Source: an uncultured Prevotellaceae bacterium (lineage in GTDB: Bacteria; Bacteroidota; Bacteroidia; Bacteroidales; Muribaculaceae). Taken from it: a stretch of 64,000 bases of DNA. The position numbers and the translations under genes were made by a program. Location: the NCBI GenBank assembly GCA_947169265.1, contig CAMVPC010000017.1, positions 1 through 64,000 on the forward strand, read 5' to 3'. The first letter of the stretch is position 1, and each line of letters opens with the position of its first letter. Shown here piece after piece: positions 22,112-57,553 of the stretch. The notes under the pieces were generated by a model that had not been told where the DNA came from, ran no database searches, and worked only from the letters and a program-made list of their open reading frames with translations.

Positions 22112-23689
22112 TTAATTAGTGGAGGAGTCGTGCACCGCTTTCCACTCCTTGATGGTGCGAGCCTCGGGATCGACGACGACGCCCACCTTGACTTTGCGGC
22201 GCGGGTCGCTCCAGTAGGGAATCAGGTAGTTCTTCTCGTCAATTTGGGCCAGGGCGTCGTCGACGGTGGCAGCGCCGTCGATTTTGAGCTCGAGCACATA
22301 GATGGTGGCGCGGTTGCGCATCACCACGTCGCAGCGGCCGCGCGCGTTGCGCACCTCCACGTCGGTCTCAATGCCCACACAGTCGAAGAGCACCTTGAGG
22401 ATGGCCTCGAAGTCGAGTTCGGTCTTCACGCCCAGATCGTAGGGCAGCGCCGAGAGGTAGCTTTGCACGGCGGTGAGTGCCGCGTCGATGTCGTCGTCGC
22501 GCATGGCGCGCTGCACGGCCATGAGCAACGAGGTGTTATCGTCGTCCGAGTCGTTCAGGTAAACCGGCATCAACGTGTTGTAGAGACCTGAGTACACCTC
22601 GCCGTTGGGGATGCCCACGGTGTAGAGGTCGAGGTCAAAATCATAGTCCTTGATGGTCAGGTAGCCGCTCTGATACAAAATGGGTATGGCGCTGGCCATG
22701 TTGTCGAACGGTTGGTCGAACGATGAGGCATAGACGTTTTTGCGCTCGATATCGGTGATTTTGAAGTTGTATTTGTTCAGTATCTTGATGAGTGCCGAGG
22801 GTGTCGCGCTCGAGAACCAGTAGTCGTCGAGTTTTATCCGCGAGAACGTGTTGACGATGCTGAACGGGTTGTACACATCGACCATCCCGGGGCCGAAGTG
22901 ATAACCGTCGTAACGCTCACGCAGACGCGCGAGCATTTCGTCGGGCGTGAGTTTATATTTCACCGCCAGCGTGGCGATATCGTCCTTGAAATCGCGCTCC
23001 AATTCGGTGGCGGTGATGCCGCACAGGCCTTCCCACGTCTCGTCCATCGAGATGTTCGAGAGGTTGTTGATGGTCGAGAAAATCGACATTTGCGAGAACT
23101 TGGTGATGCCCGTGAGGAACACGAAACGCAGGTGCTCGGCCATACTCTTGACCGGGCCGTAAAACGAGTTGTAGATGGAGCGGATGGCCTTGAGTTTTTC
23201 AGGCTCGTCAATGACGTTGAGCACCGGCGAGTCGTACTCGTCAAAAATCAGCACCGCGCGATGCCCCGTGCGCTCGTGCGCCGTGATGATGAGTTTCTCC
23301 AACCTGCCACCGAACGACAATCCTTCATTGTTCAATTCGTACTTCTTCTCGAAATCGGCCAGCAACGAATTGAGTGAAACATCCACATAATGGGGGTCAT
23401 CACTCTTGCAGCGCGACATGTCGAAGTGGAACACGGGGTATTCCACCCAGTCTTTCTCAAGGTTGGCGATAGCGAGACCCTCGAAGAGGTCCTTGCGTCC
23501 CTGAAAATAGTATTTCAGTGTGGAGCACAGCAGCGACTTACCGAAGCGGCGCGGGCGACTCAGGAACATCGCGTTGCCATAGTTGTTGGCAAGGTCAAAG
23601 ATATACCCGGTCTTGTCGACATAGACAAAACCATCCTTAATGATACTCTCAAAGTCCTGCACGCCCACAGGAAAACGACGTCGTGCCAT
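22112..23689 (-). CDS. AAA-ATPase-like protein with PD-(D/E)XK nuclease domain
   Basis: A 525-residue protein of the large Bacteroidetes family pairing an AAA-ATPase-like domain (PF09820 type) with a C-terminal DUF1703 nuclease. PVGVQDFESIIKDGFVYVDKTGY opens the domain. The Walker A-like loop is SRPRRFGKSLLCS, and Walker B is AVLIFDEYDSPV. The C-terminal nuclease motif is visible as RCDVVMRNRATIYVLELKID (D...ExK). Genomes of this order carry many copies, and their role is not known; they are often near mobile or variable regions. It is monocistronic with its own promoter. Confidence 0.92.
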   Translation of the reverse strand: MARRRFPVGVQDFESIIKDGFVYVDKTGYIFDLANNYGNAMFLSRPRRFGKSLLCSTLKYYFQGRKDLFEGLAIANLEKDWVEYPVFHFDMSRCKSDDPHYVDVSLNSLLADFEKKYELNNEGLSFGGRLEKLIITAHERTGHRAVLIFDEYDSPVLNVIDEPEKLKAIRSIYNSFYGPVKSMAEHLRFVFLTGITKFSQMSIFSTINNLSNISMDETWEGLCGITATELERDFKDDIATLAVKYKLTPDEMLARLRERYDGYHFGPGMVDVYNPFSIVNTFSRIKLDDYWFSSATPSALIKILNKYNFKITDIERKNVYASSFDQPFDNMASAIPILYQSGYLTIKDYDFDLDLYTVGIPNGEVYSGLYNTLMPVYLNDSDDDNTSLLMAVQRAMRDDDIDAALTAVQSYLSALPYDLGVKTELDFEAILKVLFDCVGIETDVEVRNARGRCDVVMRNRATIYVLELKIDGAATVDDALAQIDEKNYLIPYWSDPRRKVKVGVVVDPEARTIKEWKAVHDSSTN

Positions 23690-25257: not shown

Positions 25258-25306
25258 GGGGTTGCCGCGAGCGGTGCGCGCGTGTTTCCTTTGCCGCAAA
25301 AAACAC
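25258..25306 (+). promoter_or_regulatory. Promoter/leader of the portal-like gene (shared with 49898)
   Basis: GGGGTTG (25258-25264) supplies a -33 box. TTCCTTTG forms a variant -7 element 21 bp further on. GCCGCAAAAAACAC (25293-25306) is the leader, directly before ATGGAAAACA. The same two blocks with the same 28-bp separation occur at 49898-49946. Confidence 0.6.
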
Positions 25307-25307
25307 T

Positions 25308-26720
25308 ATGGAAAACAGCACACAACAACAAGGGGCCGCCATCCTGCAGGCGGCCTTCAAGGCGTGGAACGCGGCCACCGAGCTGCGCACCTCGCGCCGG
25401 CGCAACAAGCGTTTTACTTACGGCGACCAGTGGGCCGACGTGCTGGTAACGCCTTATGGCCGCGTGATGACCGAGAAGGAGCGTTACTACGATGATGGCA
25501 CTTACCCTATCACGAACAACCTCATTCGTCAGCTCGTGAAAACCATCGTGGGACGTTTCAGGTCGCAGTATGTCCACGATGAGAAGGTGGATAAGTCCCT
25601 TGCCGATGTTTACGATGCCAACCAGCTCGCTGAACTCGACAGTCGCGCGCTCGAGGAATTTCTCATCTCGGGGTGTTGCGTGCAACGCGTCGACAGCGTG
25701 GCCGGTCTCACGGCCACGACGGTAAGCGTCGAGAACGTGAACCTGAACCACTTTTTCGTGAACGCTTTCAGCGACCCGTTGGGGCGCGACTGCGAAATCG
25801 TGGGACAACTCCACGACTTGAGCGTCGCGCAACTCGTCAAACGCGTGGCGCAGGGTTCGCGTCGCAAGGCCGCCTGGGTGAGGCAGCTCTACAGCGAAAG
25901 TGCCGACGCGCGCGTCGACGAGCTGGCCGCCGCCTTGGGCGCCGACAGCCAGAGCGCGCTCGACTTTTGGCGCGCGGCCACACCGGGCAAATGCCGCGCC
26001 ATCGAGGTGTGGACACTCGAGAGCCAAGAGGTGATAGTGGCCCACGACCGCGACACGGCACAGCTCACCGTGCATCCGCTGGGCGCGTTGCGGCGCCTCA
26101 AGCGCGACAAGGACGCCACGCTGCGCTGGGACGTGGCCACGACGTGGCACTGCCGGTGGTTCTCGCCCATGGGCGACGAATTGGCGCACTATGAGTCGCC
26201 CTATGCCCACGCTCTTCACCCTTTCGCCATCAAGTTCTATCCGCTCACCGACGGCGAGGTGCACTCACTGGTCGAAGATGTCATCGATCAACAAAAATAT
26301 GTGAACCGCCTTATCTCGCTCATTGACCACATCATGCGTTCGAGTGCCAAGGGCGTGTTGCTGTTCCCGCAAAACGCCCTGCCCGACAATTTCACCTGGG
26401 CCGACATGAGGATGGTGTGGAGCCGCTGCAACGGCATCTTGCCCTATGTGCCCACGTTCAATGGCGAGAAACCCGAACAAATCTCGGTCAACGGCACCAA
26501 TATCGGCGCTTACGAAATGGTGCAGCTGCAAATGAAACTGCTCGAAGAGATTAGCGGAGTGAGCGGCGCGTTGCAGGGCAAGAGCGACGCGCGCGGCAAT
26601 TCAGCCTCCCTCTACCAGAGCGAGACCAAGAACTCGGTCATCGCGCTCACCGACATTTTCGACACGTTCAACGCCTTTCGCCGCACGCGCGACCGCCTCA
26701 TTCTCCACCTGGGTCAATAG
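25308..26720 (+). CDS. Phage portal-like protein, isolated, possibly C-terminally short
   Basis: A protein of 470 residues without signal peptide. The N-terminus (AFKAWNAATELRTSRRRNKRFTYGDQWAD...TEKERYYDDGTYPITNNLIRQLVKTIVG is the recognisable stretch) follows the pattern of portal proteins of Bacteroidales tailed phages. The middle has FYPLTDGEVHSLVEDVIDQQKYVNRLISLIDHI, and the end has GVSGALQGKSDARGNSASLYQSETKNSV. Portal proteins form the dodecameric ring through which DNA enters the capsid. No terminase, capsid or tail gene lies beside it. It ends soon after the last conserved block, so the usual C-terminal helices may be missing. The frame is intact and it has its own promoter and terminator. 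Assignment is by sequence pattern only. Confidence 0.65.
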   Translation: MENSTQQQGAAILQAAFKAWNAATELRTSRRRNKRFTYGDQWADVLVTPYGRVMTEKERYYDDGTYPITNNLIRQLVKTIVGRFRSQYVHDEKVDKSLADVYDANQLAELDSRALEEFLISGCCVQRVDSVAGLTATTVSVENVNLNHFFVNAFSDPLGRDCEIVGQLHDLSVAQLVKRVAQGSRRKAAWVRQLYSESADARVDELAAALGADSQSALDFWRAATPGKCRAIEVWTLESQEVIVAHDRDTAQLTVHPLGALRRLKRDKDATLRWDVATTWHCRWFSPMGDELAHYESPYAHALHPFAIKFYPLTDGEVHSLVEDVIDQQKYVNRLISLIDHIMRSSAKGVLLFPQNALPDNFTWADMRMVWSRCNGILPYVPTFNGEKPEQISVNGTNIGAYEMVQLQMKLLEEISGVSGALQGKSDARGNSASLYQSETKNSVIALTDIFDTFNAFRRTRDRLILHLGQ

Positions 26721-49897: not shown

Positions 49898-49946
49898 GGG
49901 GTTGTGACCTGTGGCGGCGACAGGGTAATTTCGCCGCAAAAAACAC
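49898..49946 (+). promoter_or_regulatory. Promoter/leader shared with the portal-like gene
   Basis: GGGGTTG (49898-49904), 21 bp, TAATTTCG as -7 variant, then GCCGCAAAAAACAC (49933-49946). The two outer blocks are 28 bp apart, exactly as at 25258-25306. Both lead to ATGGAAAACA starts. Confidence 0.65.
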
Positions 49947-49957
49947 ACATCGTTACT

Positions 49958-50536
49958 ATGGAAAACACAAGCCAATTTTATGACCTCACGCCACTGCAAA
50001 TGGTGGCCCTCGCGCGCGAACTGCTTCTTTTGCAGCCGGCCATGAGCGACTGCACCATCACGCGTACCGACGGTATCGACCTCGATGCCCTGCTCACCAA
50101 GCACCTCGACAGCTGGTATGCCCGGTTGTTGCTCACCGCGCCCGCCGAATGGCTTCCCGTGGAGGACGTGGCGGCGCAGGTTACGCTCACCATCGACGCC
50201 GACGACGTGGTGACGGCTGTGCCGCCGCCTCACTGCGTGCGCCCCGTGGAATGGCGTCTCGAGGGATGGGAGCGCGGCGTCACCACGTTCTTGAGTCCCG
50301 ATGACCATGCGGCGCGCTTGCAACTCAACCCGTGGACGCGCGCCGGCGTCGCCTCGCCCGCTGCCATCGACATGGGCGACAGGTTGCTGCTCTTCGGGGC
50401 GCCCCACGGGCAGGAGAGCACATTGGTCACGGCACGTTGCGTGGTACGCCCCATCGACGGCAACTATCGTTTCCACCGCGCCGCCCTTGAGGACCTCACG
50501 TCCGTGCTTAGCGCCGCTAAATTGTTCAATTTTTAA
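49958..50536 (+). CDS. Unknown protein, first gene of a lysozyme-like pair
   Basis: A protein of 210 residues without signal peptide or membrane helix. It opens MENTSQFYDLTPLQMVALARELL. The middle is beta-rich and Trp-containing (RPVEWRLEGWERGVTTFLSPDDHAARLQLNPWTR), and the end is LTSVLSAAKLFNF. I do not recognise the family. Its position before a GH108 lysozyme gene and its promoter, shared with a portal-like gene, suggest a phage-derived structural protein. The ATG at 49958 was preferred because it follows the leader. Confidence 0.65.
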   Translation: MENTSQFYDLTPLQMVALARELLLLQPAMSDCTITRTDGIDLDALLTKHLDSWYARLLLTAPAEWLPVEDVAAQVTLTIDADDVVTAVPPPHCVRPVEWRLEGWERGVTTFLSPDDHAARLQLNPWTRAGVASPAAIDMGDRLLLFGAPHGQESTLVTARCVVRPIDGNYRFHRAALEDLTSVLSAAKLFNF

Positions 50537-50548
50537 CCCGTCGGGACT

Positions 50549-51139
50549 ATGGCAAATTTTGATGTAATCATTCCTTTTTTTCTCAAGTGGGAAGCCGGGC
50601 TGACCAAGGCGGCGCTCAACTTGCCGCTCGAGCAGATGTTCAGGCTGGCGCGCGAAACCGGCTACGGCAACGACCCGGCCGACACTGGTGGCGCCACCAT
50701 GTGCGGCGTGACAATCGCCACTTATCGTTCTTATTGCAAGCGAAAAGGGCTGCCTGTGCCGGGCATTGATGAGTTGAAAGCTATCCCTTACGCCCGGTGG
50801 CGCCAGCTGGCCAAGGAGATGTTTTGGGACCGGTGGCAGGCCGACCGCATCACTTCGCAACCCGTGGCCAACATTCTCGTCGACTGGGTGTGGGCGAGCG
50901 GTAAGTATGGCATCACCCTGCCGCAAAAGTTGCTCGGTGTCGAGGCCGACGGCATCGTGGGGCCGGTGACGCTGGCGGCCCTCAACGGCAGCGAGCCGCG
51001 CGCGCTGTTTGCCCGGCTGTGGCAGGCGCGTGCGGCTTACATCGAAGCGATTTGCGCCCGCCGCCCCGCTAACAGGAAGTTCCGTCGAGGGTGGCTCAAC
51101 CGCCTGCGCGGCATCACTTACGACCGCCTGGTGCTGTGA
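50549..51139 (+). CDS. GH108-type N-acetylmuramidase (phage-lysin-like) with PG-binding domain
   Basis: A protein of 196 residues without signal peptide. The N-terminal GH108 domain has catalytic glutamate candidate E15 in FFLKWEAG, then ETGYGNDPADTGGATMCGVTI; a 15-residue insertion separates the two blocks. The C-terminal PG_binding_3 region has LGVEADGIVGPVTLAALNG. The family includes phage endolysins and secretion-activating proteins. Lack of an export signal means another factor must deliver it. It is 12 bp downstream of the 210-residue gene. Confidence 0.85.
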   Translation: MANFDVIIPFFLKWEAGLTKAALNLPLEQMFRLARETGYGNDPADTGGATMCGVTIATYRSYCKRKGLPVPGIDELKAIPYARWRQLAKEMFWDRWQADRITSQPVANILVDWVWASGKYGITLPQKLLGVEADGIVGPVTLAALNGSEPRALFARLWQARAAYIEAICARRPANRKFRRGWLNRLRGITYDRLVL

Positions 51140-54916: not shown

Positions 54917-57553
54917 ATGAAGAACGTTTATCTACTTTTCATCGCACTGATAATGGCCTTCGCGGGCCGGGCCGCCACCAACTATGGTTTCAAGGTGGGA
55001 GGCGTGGACGTCAATAGCGACAATTACAGCAACGTGACCGGCGAAAATATCAAAGCCAATGACACAAGCAAACCGTTCTCGGTGGTGTATAACCCCAATA
55101 CTAATGTGCTCACCATCACCAACGTGTATATTAAACGCACCGGCACCGACAACCGCGCGCTCTTCAATCAGAGCTGCACGGGGCTCAAGGTGGTGTTTGT
55201 GGGCGATAACTATTTCAAGGCTGTTAATGCCTCGGCGCTGCGCGCCAATGTGAACACCACGCTTTCCAGTCCTAACGGCAAGTTGCAGGTAGCGGGCGAC
55301 AAAGAAAACGCCATTTATATCGCCAACGGCTGCACGCTCACCATTGATGATTGTGAAATCGAGGCCGACTGCTATTACGAAGGCTCAAGCTCTACCATCG
55401 AGGGGAACAAAGGCACCGAGAAAATCATCATCAAGAATTCGTATTTTTACGCGTTTAATCAAAACAACGATTACTACGCTATTCGCGACATTGGCTCTAT
55501 CAACGTCACCAGCTCTTATTTTGTCGCAATCAATGCCATTAGTCAGGCTTCAGCGTTCAAGAACGTGAAGGGTTTCACCATCTCGAGCGATATGCAGATG
55601 CTTGGTGGCACGCAATACAATGCATCGAGCTATTCCACTACACCTTCCACAGGGATTCGCGCCTCGGTGGCAGTGCCCATTGATGCCGCCCATTTCCCCG
55701 ACGCCACTTTCCGCGCCTATGTCGACAGCAAAGAAGTAACGGACGACAACATACTCGCCTTGCCGGTGAAGAGTGAGCTCGGAGAAATTTATGCCGACGG
55801 GTATGTCTCCGTTAGCCTTTATAATAAAGGCATCACCAGCCTCAAGGGCATCGAATACTTGACCGGGTTGACTTCCCTCGACTGCTCAAGCAACAGCTTG
55901 ACCACGCTCGACCTCACCAAAAACACGGAATTGACCACGCTTGATGTGGGCAATAACCGGCTAACATCACTCAACTTGAGCAAGAACACGGCACTCACAA
56001 CATTAGGGTGCTACAACAACCAACTCACCACACTGAACCTGAGCAACCACAAAGCGCTGAATACGTTAGATTGCGACTACAACCAACTGACGACTCTCAC
56101 CCTGCCCACCACTACCACATTGCTTTTTAATATAAGTTGTGTAAGCAATAAGCTCTCTTCGCTTTCCCTCTCGGGCTGCTTGGCGCTGCGAACGCTGAAT
56201 TGCAATAGCAACAACCTCACGTCGCTGGCCGGAATACCAAGCTCCATCATGGAAGTGGATGTCACGAACAATAAGTTCACCACACTCACTATCACCGGCA
56301 AGCCTAACTTGACGAAGCTCAATGTGAGCAGCAATCCCTCGCTCACCCAGCTGGATTGCCACGGTAACAGTCTTAGTTCGCTTAACATCTGGGGGTGCAC
56401 GGCCCTCTCGACGTTGAACTGCAGCCAGAATAAACTCACGTCGCTAACCAATGTCCCCGACAACATCACCGAAGTGCTCGCCGGCAACAACTACCTCTCC
56501 TCGCTCACCCTCGCCGGCTATTCAAAATTGACGAAGCTCGATGTGAGCAACAACACCCAGTTGCAAAAGCTCGATTGTAGTGTTAACGCACTCACCACAA
56601 TGAACATCTCGGGCTGCGCGGCGCTCAAAACGCTCATGTGTGGCGGCAACCAACTCACCACCCTGTCCACGCTGCCTCCCAGCCTGTCCATCCTGTCGTG
56701 TGACAACAACCTGCTCTCCTCGTTGCCCTCCACCTTGCCCTCCACCTTGACCAGCTTGTCGTGCAACAATAACACTATCTCCACATTGCCCACGTTACCC
56801 GCCGCTATTGTCGAACTGTATGCCGCCGGTAATGATTTTACCACGCTCTCCATCACTGGCAAGACGAACTTGAGGACACTCAATTTGAATGGCAACCCCT
56901 TGCTTACCAAACTCGAATGTTACGATAACGCGCTCACGAGCCTTAATGTGAGTGCTTGCTCGCATTTGAAGAATCTTTTCTGCGACGGCAACCAGCTCAC
57001 CTCGCTCAGCAACTTGCCTGCCGGCCTCGTCTACCTGAAGTGCAACAACAACCAGCTCACTACCCTTTCGGTTGATGGTTTGTCAAATCTCGAAACGCTC
57101 TCATGCGAGAGCAACAAGCTGTCGGAGCTCTCGGTGAGCGGATGCGACAAGTTGAGCACAATCAATTGCCACTTGAACAAAATCAAGGGCACCGGGATGA
57201 CCACACTGGTAAATAGCTTGCGCACCATTCCGGCGGGGGATCACGGCACGTTCAAGGTGGTAGCTGAGGACTATTCGGCCGAGGTCAACGAAATCACTAA
57301 TGAGCAGGTGAACGTGGCACGCGGCAAGAATTGGTTGCCTTACAAGCTGCTGAACGGCGCGTGGGTTGAAATCAAGGGCACCGGCCTGCAGGGCGACGTG
57401 AATGGCGACGGCTCGGTCAATGGTGCCGATGTGACGGCCCTCTATGGGTATCTGCTTGACAACAAAGCGGTTGTCGGCAATCCCGATGTGAGCGGTGACG
57501 GCTCGGTGAGCGGCGCCGACGTGACGGCCCTCTACAACCTGCTTCTCAAGTAA
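54917..57553 (+). CDS. Secreted leucine-rich-repeat protein with C-terminal dockerin-like pair
   Basis: A protein of 878 residues with signal peptide (about 1-20). The first 250 or so residues look like a beta-helix with Asn/Ser/Thr-rich turns. FPDATFRAYVDSKEV opens the LRR region: about 25 short repeats of the form LTSLDCSSNSLTTLDLTKN, with some internalin-like spacing of 20-21 residues. The C-terminus carries two calcium loops, DVNGDGSVNGADVTALYGYLL and DVSGDGSVSGADVTALYNLLL. These are nearly the same as the N-terminal pair of the 1353-residue protein. It is probably cell-surface or secreted and ligand-binding. No catalytic motif was found. Confidence 0.85.
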   Translation: MKNVYLLFIALIMAFAGRAATNYGFKVGGVDVNSDNYSNVTGENIKANDTSKPFSVVYNPNTNVLTITNVYIKRTGTDNRALFNQSCTGLKVVFVGDNYFKAVNASALRANVNTTLSSPNGKLQVAGDKENAIYIANGCTLTIDDCEIEADCYYEGSSSTIEGNKGTEKIIIKNSYFYAFNQNNDYYAIRDIGSINVTSSYFVAINAISQASAFKNVKGFTISSDMQMLGGTQYNASSYSTTPSTGIRASVAVPIDAAHFPDATFRAYVDSKEVTDDNILALPVKSELGEIYADGYVSVSLYNKGITSLKGIEYLTGLTSLDCSSNSLTTLDLTKNTELTTLDVGNNRLTSLNLSKNTALTTLGCYNNQLTTLNLSNHKALNTLDCDYNQLTTLTLPTTTTLLFNISCVSNKLSSLSLSGCLALRTLNCNSNNLTSLAGIPSSIMEVDVTNNKFTTLTITGKPNLTKLNVSSNPSLTQLDCHGNSLSSLNIWGCTALSTLNCSQNKLTSLTNVPDNITEVLAGNNYLSSLTLAGYSKLTKLDVSNNTQLQKLDCSVNALTTMNISGCAALKTLMCGGNQLTTLSTLPPSLSILSCDNNLLSSLPSTLPSTLTSLSCNNNTISTLPTLPAAIVELYAAGNDFTTLSITGKTNLRTLNLNGNPLLTKLECYDNALTSLNVSACSHLKNLFCDGNQLTSLSNLPAGLVYLKCNNNQLTTLSVDGLSNLETLSCESNKLSELSVSGCDKLSTINCHLNKIKGTGMTTLVNSLRTIPAGDHGTFKVVAEDYSAEVNEITNEQVNVARGKNWLPYKLLNGAWVEIKGTGLQGDVNGDGSVNGADVTALYGYLLDNKAVVGNPDVSGDGSVSGADVTALYNLLLK

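Follow-up and report, generated by a model that had tools for sequence, protein, structure and literature searches.

A dispersed set of phage-derived genes in a Muribaculaceae genome sharing a predicted promoter: a putative GTA-like regulon

Gene transfer agents (GTAs) are already a known kind of system. For RcGTA of Rhodobacter capsulatus, it has been described that the genes often lie at several loci and that the activator GafA binds near the -10/-35 region and switches their expression on (PMC9638019). The genes analysed here resemble that description in logic alone, with no homology claimed: they too occupy several loci and may answer to an activator near the core promoter, whereas most structural genes here are single or paired and the -33 element of their promoters is replaced lineage by lineage. 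Among the GTAs compared by description, FpGTA of Faecalibacterium prausnitzii (Bacillota) is the closest in gene content. In one strain its genes lie in two operons separated by about 125 kb, and its particles contain about 9 kb of DNA (PMC12946183). As in the present case, a short-tailed-phage-like set (TerL, portal, scaffold and capsid) is accompanied by a second locus with holin and endolysin; in contrast to those two operons, the genes reported here stand at six loci in a member of the Bacteroidales, share a promoter and are known from genes alone.

The Bacteroides phages BKO1-TP3, BS-TP4 and BF1-TP2 encode portals 30-36% identical over 95-97% of the query. However, these phages have contiguous genomes of 64-68 kb with very large ORFs, whereas the genes here are single and lie amid apparently non-phage genes. 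In BKO1-TP3, a DUF5309-type protein, a tail spike and an endolysin are encoded near the portal, and an integrase lies at the edge of the stretch read. In the Bacteroidetes, the -7 consensus of primary-sigma promoters is given as TAnnTTTG (PMC7366714). No GTA of the Bacteroidota was found described in the literature, which was covered mostly at title and abstract level and with few subscription papers; the present genes suggest a GTA-like particle in a bacterial group for which that search found none. Of the 186 contigs with mobilisation patterns in a study of particles from the mouse gut, 83 were assigned to Bacteroidetes; patterns of generalised transduction or of GTAs were seen in 46 of the 186, the Bacteroidetes share of which is not given in the account consulted (PMC7667829).

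Six loci with one predicted promoter architecture

The window, which is the whole stretch of 64,000 nucleotides analysed, belongs to contig C17 of the Muribaculaceae genome G000 (2.9 Mb, 74 contigs). The sequence-only reading had claimed an identical promoter architecture at two phage-like loci in it, and this was borne out: GGGGTTG-N28-GCCGCAAAAAACAC occurs in two exact copies, 25258-25306 and 49898-49946, which are the sole matches in the window even when up to three mismatches are allowed (0.01 expected from 100 shuffles). The motif is predicted to be a promoter consisting of a -33 element GRGGTDG, a gap of 20-21 bp and a Bacteroidetes-type -7 box. Of the 28 intervening bases said to differ, 21 are indeed variable, but the remaining seven belong to the -7 box. 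The features of the two window loci are as follows.

25258..25264, plus strand: -33 element GGGGTTG of the predicted portal promoter (motif match and promoter-model match)
25286..25293, plus strand: -7 box TTCCTTTG of the predicted portal promoter, 21 bp after the -33 element
25308..26720, plus strand: P22-type portal gene, 470 aa (PF16510 4.6e-15; phrog_156 9e-41)
49898..49904, plus strand: -33 element GGGGTTG of the predicted p210 promoter (motif match and promoter-model match)
49926..49933, plus strand: -7 box TAATTTCG of the predicted p210 promoter, 21 bp after the -33 element
49958..50536, plus strand: p210, a phage structural-type protein of 192 aa (homologs and gene neighbourhood)
50549..51139, plus strand: GH108 endolysin, 196 aa, second gene of the p210 operon (PF05838 1.2e-18; phrog_315)

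The 14-mer GCCGCAAAAAACAC is exact at both window loci, ending 1 bp before the ATG of the portal gene and 11 bp before that of p210. Because the four other loci of G000 read CGGCGTAATT, CGGATAAAAA, CACGAAAAAA and TGCCGTTAG downstream of the -7 box, conservation does not extend over the full 14-mer, and with just two copies in the whole genome, both in the window, the 14-mer was rejected as a regulon marker. In the proposed pair of a 210-residue protein and a GH108 enzyme, the endolysin stands, whereas the ORF of 210 codons is better read from the likelier start ATG at 49958, which gives 192 aa; by its gene neighbourhood, p210 may be connector-like. The gap from p210 to the endolysin gene is 12 bp. 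GH108 adjoins p210 at one of 16 p210 loci, the one in G000, and another of these loci (L141) ends with its contig. Elsewhere in the window, 54917-57553 encodes an 878 aa leucine-rich-repeat protein with a type I dockerin domain, and 22112-23689 on the minus strand, near the portal locus, encodes a 525 aa AAA-ATPase-like protein with a PDDEXK_9 nuclease domain.

The same promoter architecture is found at six separate loci on five contigs of G000.

Contig C17 (the window), two loci: portal; p210 with GH108 endolysin
Contig C32: TerL (phrog_2), promoter GAGGTTG-N21-TTATTTTGC
Contig C8: scaffold-like ORF and SU10-type major capsid (PF17236 2.7e-50), promoter GGGGTAG-N21-TATTTTTGC
Contig C18: structural-type protein of 790 aa, standing alone, promoter GGGGTAG-N20-TATTTTTGC
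Contig C2: holin-family gene, an 80 aa ORF, found through the promoter-model search

The -33 element is GGGGTTG at three of the six loci, GAGGTTG at one and GGGGTAG at two. The -7 box agrees exactly with TAnnTTTG at the capsid, C18 and holin loci and is one base off at the other three, and the primary-sigma -33 motif TTTG is absent from all six. TerL resembles T4 gp17 (4.7e-5), including the HDDLVM nuclease stretch. The scaffold-like ORF 5' of the capsid gene encodes 99 aa and has a weak scaffold-family match (0.037). Database matches of the portal to 8jov (2e-4) and of the capsid to 9in6 (7.7e-9) add little. Protein homology led to the C18 gene, whose promoter was read only afterwards; a family of about 665 aa to which it belongs stands directly before TerL in G025, G022 and G035. 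Since the family of the 80 aa ORF adjoins endolysin-like genes in several relatives, this ORF is considered holin-like, and its copies in G027, G004, G005 and G016 lie, as judged by eye, behind each genome's own promoter type. At four of the six loci (portal, p210, TerL and scaffold-like ORF) the first protein begins with MEN.

The flanks of the six loci were read as non-phage genes, mostly by eye and by Pfam for the window neighbours, apart from a transposase-like ORF of 100 aa (by eye; L065 8576-8878) just upstream of the TerL promoter on C32, which could bear on the dispersal of the loci. The TerL family search also returned two stretches that were set aside by eye, one as a PhoH-like ATPase (L053) and one as a prophage-like fragment (L052), the latter being a separate prophage-like contig (G000:C67) with a second terminase-like ORF. 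Another separate prophage-like contig (G000:C66, L222) carries a holin-family gene with an endolysin-like ORF.

The possibility that the motif is widespread before housekeeping genes was pursued in 125 kb of G000 and did not hold. Five of 85 -7 boxes there have the element 20-22 bp upstream, against about 0.16 chance co-occurrences expected, and these five are all of the particle-gene promoters in that DNA; the pattern came from these very sites, and the informative part is the 80 boxes without the element. Similarly, in 108 kb of clade E DNA, four of 39 -7 boxes carry that clade's own element, all of them before particle genes, in a scan that recovered four of the six promoters present in the six stretches and missed those of L131 and L133. 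A strict clade E pattern run over 61 genomes gave one match in each of 18, of which 11 could be placed beside the portal; it was too strict to show a regulon.

Three promoter models were then run genome-wide. Model R1, built by sequence only from 12 sites of G027, G034, G008 and G028, was applied to all of G000, where 150 of 1600 candidates were scored. Among 14 hits it ranked p210 (3.4e-5), portal (6.4e-4) and TerL (7.6e-4) first to third, followed by the holin-family site in fourth place (0.058) and the capsid promoter in sixth (0.116); the C18 site was missed, and several other hits match solely from inside the spacer onward. As the close relative G027 contributed four of the 12 sites, R1 is not fully independent of G000.

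Model R3, based on 17 sites of the G000 type and run over five genomes, gave 19 hits below 0.05, every one before particle or lysis genes. Besides the 17 training sites, the two new ones (G034:C48 and G008:C71) stand before an M15-peptidase-like ORF (by eye), which is followed by the portal. The 20-bp C18 site and the p210 site of G008 (an R1 training site whose register is off by one) did not enter model R3 and are not among its hits.

Model R2, trained on seven sites of G004 and G022 and run over both genomes, gave 14 hits with E below 0.01, half of which are the training sites. Two of the seven new hits lie directly before an operon of the C18 family and TerL (G004, 8.3e-6; G022, 0.0019). 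The regulon may be wider than the particle genes in G004 and G022, since the other five new hits precede no recognised particle gene. These are G004:C315 (1.6e-6), with no clear ORF behind the site, G022:C39 (0.0015), and three sites with a repeated leader (G022:C72, C43 and C55; L320, L322 and L324). The leader copies share a stretch around GAAACCC...TTA, with a GGCAATGGAAAACAC-like start in two, and the C55 copy precedes an AAA/RepA-like ATPase ORF of 379 aa, perhaps an element exploiting the regulon.

Concerted turnover of the -33 element

Across genomes, five types of -33 element were distinguished by eye.

TGGGGTTG: G000, G027, G008, G028 and G034
TTGACCTTG: G003, G005, G014 and G031
TTTTTTAATGTTG: G001, G010, G011 and G030
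TTGCTYGGTTGATGG: G004 and G022
TGCTTTTTGACATGG: G025 and kin

The -7 boxes of these predicted promoters are at or one base from the TAnnTTTG described for primary-sigma (sigma-ABfr) promoters, whereas the longer, lineage-specific -33 elements take the place of TTTG (PMC7366714; PMC9723704). In G004, at least 18 identical bases are found in the -33 region before portal and p210.

For a label permutation, 106 upstream regions were extracted (30 portal, 30 TerL, 31 capsid and 15 p210). The best-scoring -7 box was taken in each region, and some probably false boxes in coding DNA were kept in. The first test was limited to regions with a -7 score of 9 or more and all 24 upstream bases, which left 26 for portal, 16 for TerL, 15 for capsid and 15 for p210. 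Different genes of one genome agree in the -33 region at 8.68 of 15 bases, compared with 6.21 (sd 0.27) after shuffling (0/2000; 72 pairs), while the spacer control gave 4.44 vs 4.32 (582/2000). At a threshold of 12, the -33 region reached 10.24 vs 6.79 (0/2000; 49 pairs) and the spacer 5.06 vs 4.50 (26/2000). The C18-family class was extracted later, by the -7 box alone, and 21 of its 26 regions were used; it gave 9.77 vs 7.68 in the -33 region (0/5000; 31 pairs, 21 sites) and 6.00 vs 5.88 in the spacer (1736/5000). With all five classes together, the values were 10.31 vs 7.45 (0/2000; 86 pairs) and 6.15 vs 5.85 (76/2000), respectively. Next to the effect in the -33 region, that in the spacer is thus slight or lacking, though not always zero. 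That the -33 element varies between lineages and yet agrees across the loci of one genome points to one trans-acting factor; elements at separate sites would be expected to change in step if a single protein reads them all.

Conservation of the particle genes in the genus

The same-genus set comprised 37 genomes (G000-G036), and 24 others of the order were also searched for the portal. The portal is present in 36 of the 37 (missing in G020) and in two of the 24, TerL in 35 (missing in G023 and G031) and the capsid family in 35 (missing in G020 and G033). Of 25 same-genus genomes searched for the C18 family, 24 contain it, as does none of 16 others of the order. The particle genes are fixed in the genus rather than sporadic. 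p210 homologs were detected in 15 of the 37 as well as in G057, and not in G025 and kin. Portal and TerL matches are free of internal stops. The portal match falls into two pieces within one open frame in G012, G013, G016 and G029 and is partial in G031; in G007 and G015, separate open frames share the capsid match between them. A second, prophage-like portal copy occurs in G008, and a second, more distant TerL copy in G008, G024, G033 and G035. Between G000 and G027, dN/dS is 0.10 for portal, 0.17 for TerL, 0.09 for capsid, 0.13 for p210, 0.06 for holin and 0.17 for the scaffold-like ORF; in this one genome pair, all six genes are under purifying selection.

The arrangement of the genes differs between lineages. 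In G025, the portal, a 132 aa ORF and the capsid form one cassette. G057, which belongs to a different family within the order, has portal, TerL and capsid on separate contigs, with a p210 homolog adjoining the capsid in the capsid operon. On a 9.4 kb contig of a viral collection (IMGVR_UViG_3300043106_000192, L304), a TerL-like gene, a scaffold-like gene, the capsid, a p210 homolog and the portal stand in a row; the first two were named by eye, and the capsid is 53% identical to that of G000. It is possible that this cluster is an undispersed form. Its first ORF was also tried as a C18-family homolog, which was not supported (hhalign probability 9.5%). Portal relatives occur in Muribaculaceae bacterium RGIG10137 from yak rumen (JAGCUP010000033.1; 85% portal identity) and in Candidatus Sodaliphilus aphodohippi, and Sodaliphilus pleomorphus DSM 108610 is described as a cultured relative within the family (PMC7738495). 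A YidE/AspT-like transporter gene, named by eye, is found close to the portal in G025 (L061) and G057 (L054), which represent two families of the order; this hints at an old shared position. The lysis-type genes vary: GH108 follows p210 in G000, an amidase-like gene lies behind the holin in G004 (L214), and M15-like genes occur in G005 (L209) and before the portal in G034 (L343) and G008 (L352), the last four being named by eye.

A proposed GTA-like particle and its alternatives

The best explanation, to which we give a probability of about 0.7, is a regulon that is dispersed over the chromosome, fixed there, and dedicated to a phage-derived GTA-like particle. Co-regulation of the loci is highly probable: the common regulator of scattered phage-derived genes that the sequence-only reading predicted gains support from the six loci, the R1 ranking and the concerted -33 turnover, although as a protein it is putative. 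The -7 box is of the primary-sigma type and the -33 element is private, which would call for an activator, or a sigma variant, in place of the usual -33 contact. In the proposed mechanism, each locus would have its own promoter, with a nearly ordinary primary-sigma -7 box and, 20-21 bp upstream of it, a lineage-specific element in place of the usual -33 site. The dedicated activator or sigma variant would bind this element and turn the loci on together, capsids would assemble, the terminase would fill them with chromosomal DNA, and holin and endolysin would release the particles.

A GTA-like function is itself likely. Phage-derived head and packaging genes are present (portal PF16510, capsid PF17236 and TerL phrog_2) and have been conserved over the long term under purifying selection, with the split capsid of G007 and G015 as the exception; the dispersed loci are probably under coordinated control, as the shared promoter and the concerted -33 turnover indicate; and lysis genes are represented by GH108 in the p210 operon and by the holin-family gene behind the same promoter. 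Capsid, portal, T4-like terminase, holin-family and endolysin genes together would cover the needs of a DNA-filled particle released by lysis. Since the loci are spread over five contigs, no particle packaged from a single site could hold all of them, so that transfer of host DNA would be the likeliest selected function. With somewhat less assurance, we favour the fuller account of a GTA of the Bacteroidota that was independently domesticated and, in lineages including the present one, split into at least six loci of one or two genes, united by nothing but a promoter code in which the -33 element changes from lineage to lineage in step with a putative activator.

It is unlikely that the domesticated particle, under the same common control, serves something other than DNA transfer, as a killing particle, a protein compartment or the helper set of a satellite. 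The ATPase ORF behind one copy of the leader in G022 could belong to an element using the regulon and would suit such a use, but the conserved TerL with its nuclease-type residues, together with portal and capsid, points to DNA packaging, the holin and endolysin genes point to release by lysis, and neither TerL nor portal would be required for an empty shell. Considerably less probable is the view that the genes are decaying remnants of one or several prophages broken by rearrangement, whose promoters are alike by descent from one phage promoter. In its favour, the genes are phage-derived, the three Bacteroides phages encode related portals, the portal, scaffold-like ORF and capsid still form one cassette in some lineages, and the capsid match is split in two genomes. 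Nevertheless, the results on selection and permutation already strain it: dN/dS of 0.06-0.17, presence in 35-36 of 37 genomes, and portal and TerL matches without internal stops do not fit decay, while common descent leaves unexplained why -33 elements agree within a genome and differ between lineages when the spacers agree weakly or not at all.

The least probable alternative, and a very improbable one, is that these are ordinary primary-sigma promoters with an A-rich leader, the likeness of the two window sites being mostly due to chance and composition. The -7 box is indeed near the normal Bacteroidetes box as described (PMC7366714), and yet 80 of 85 such boxes lack the element, far fewer coincidences would be expected than the five observed, several other genome-wide hits match only from within the spacer onward, and the concerted change of the -33 element is specific to lineages.

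If the reading as a GTA-like regulon is true, it would have several consequences. The -33 element would serve as a handle for finding the remaining members by promoter alone, and its change in step at separate loci would represent a natural experiment in the coevolution of a regulator and its sites. The Bacteroidales are described as belonging to those gut bacteria in which genes are transferred at the highest rates, and the routes named are conjugative elements and, in Bacteroides, lateral transduction (PMC12946183). A genus-wide GTA-like system would be an additional route of gene transfer, one easily missed in cluster-based searches for phage genes because its genes need not be neighbours.
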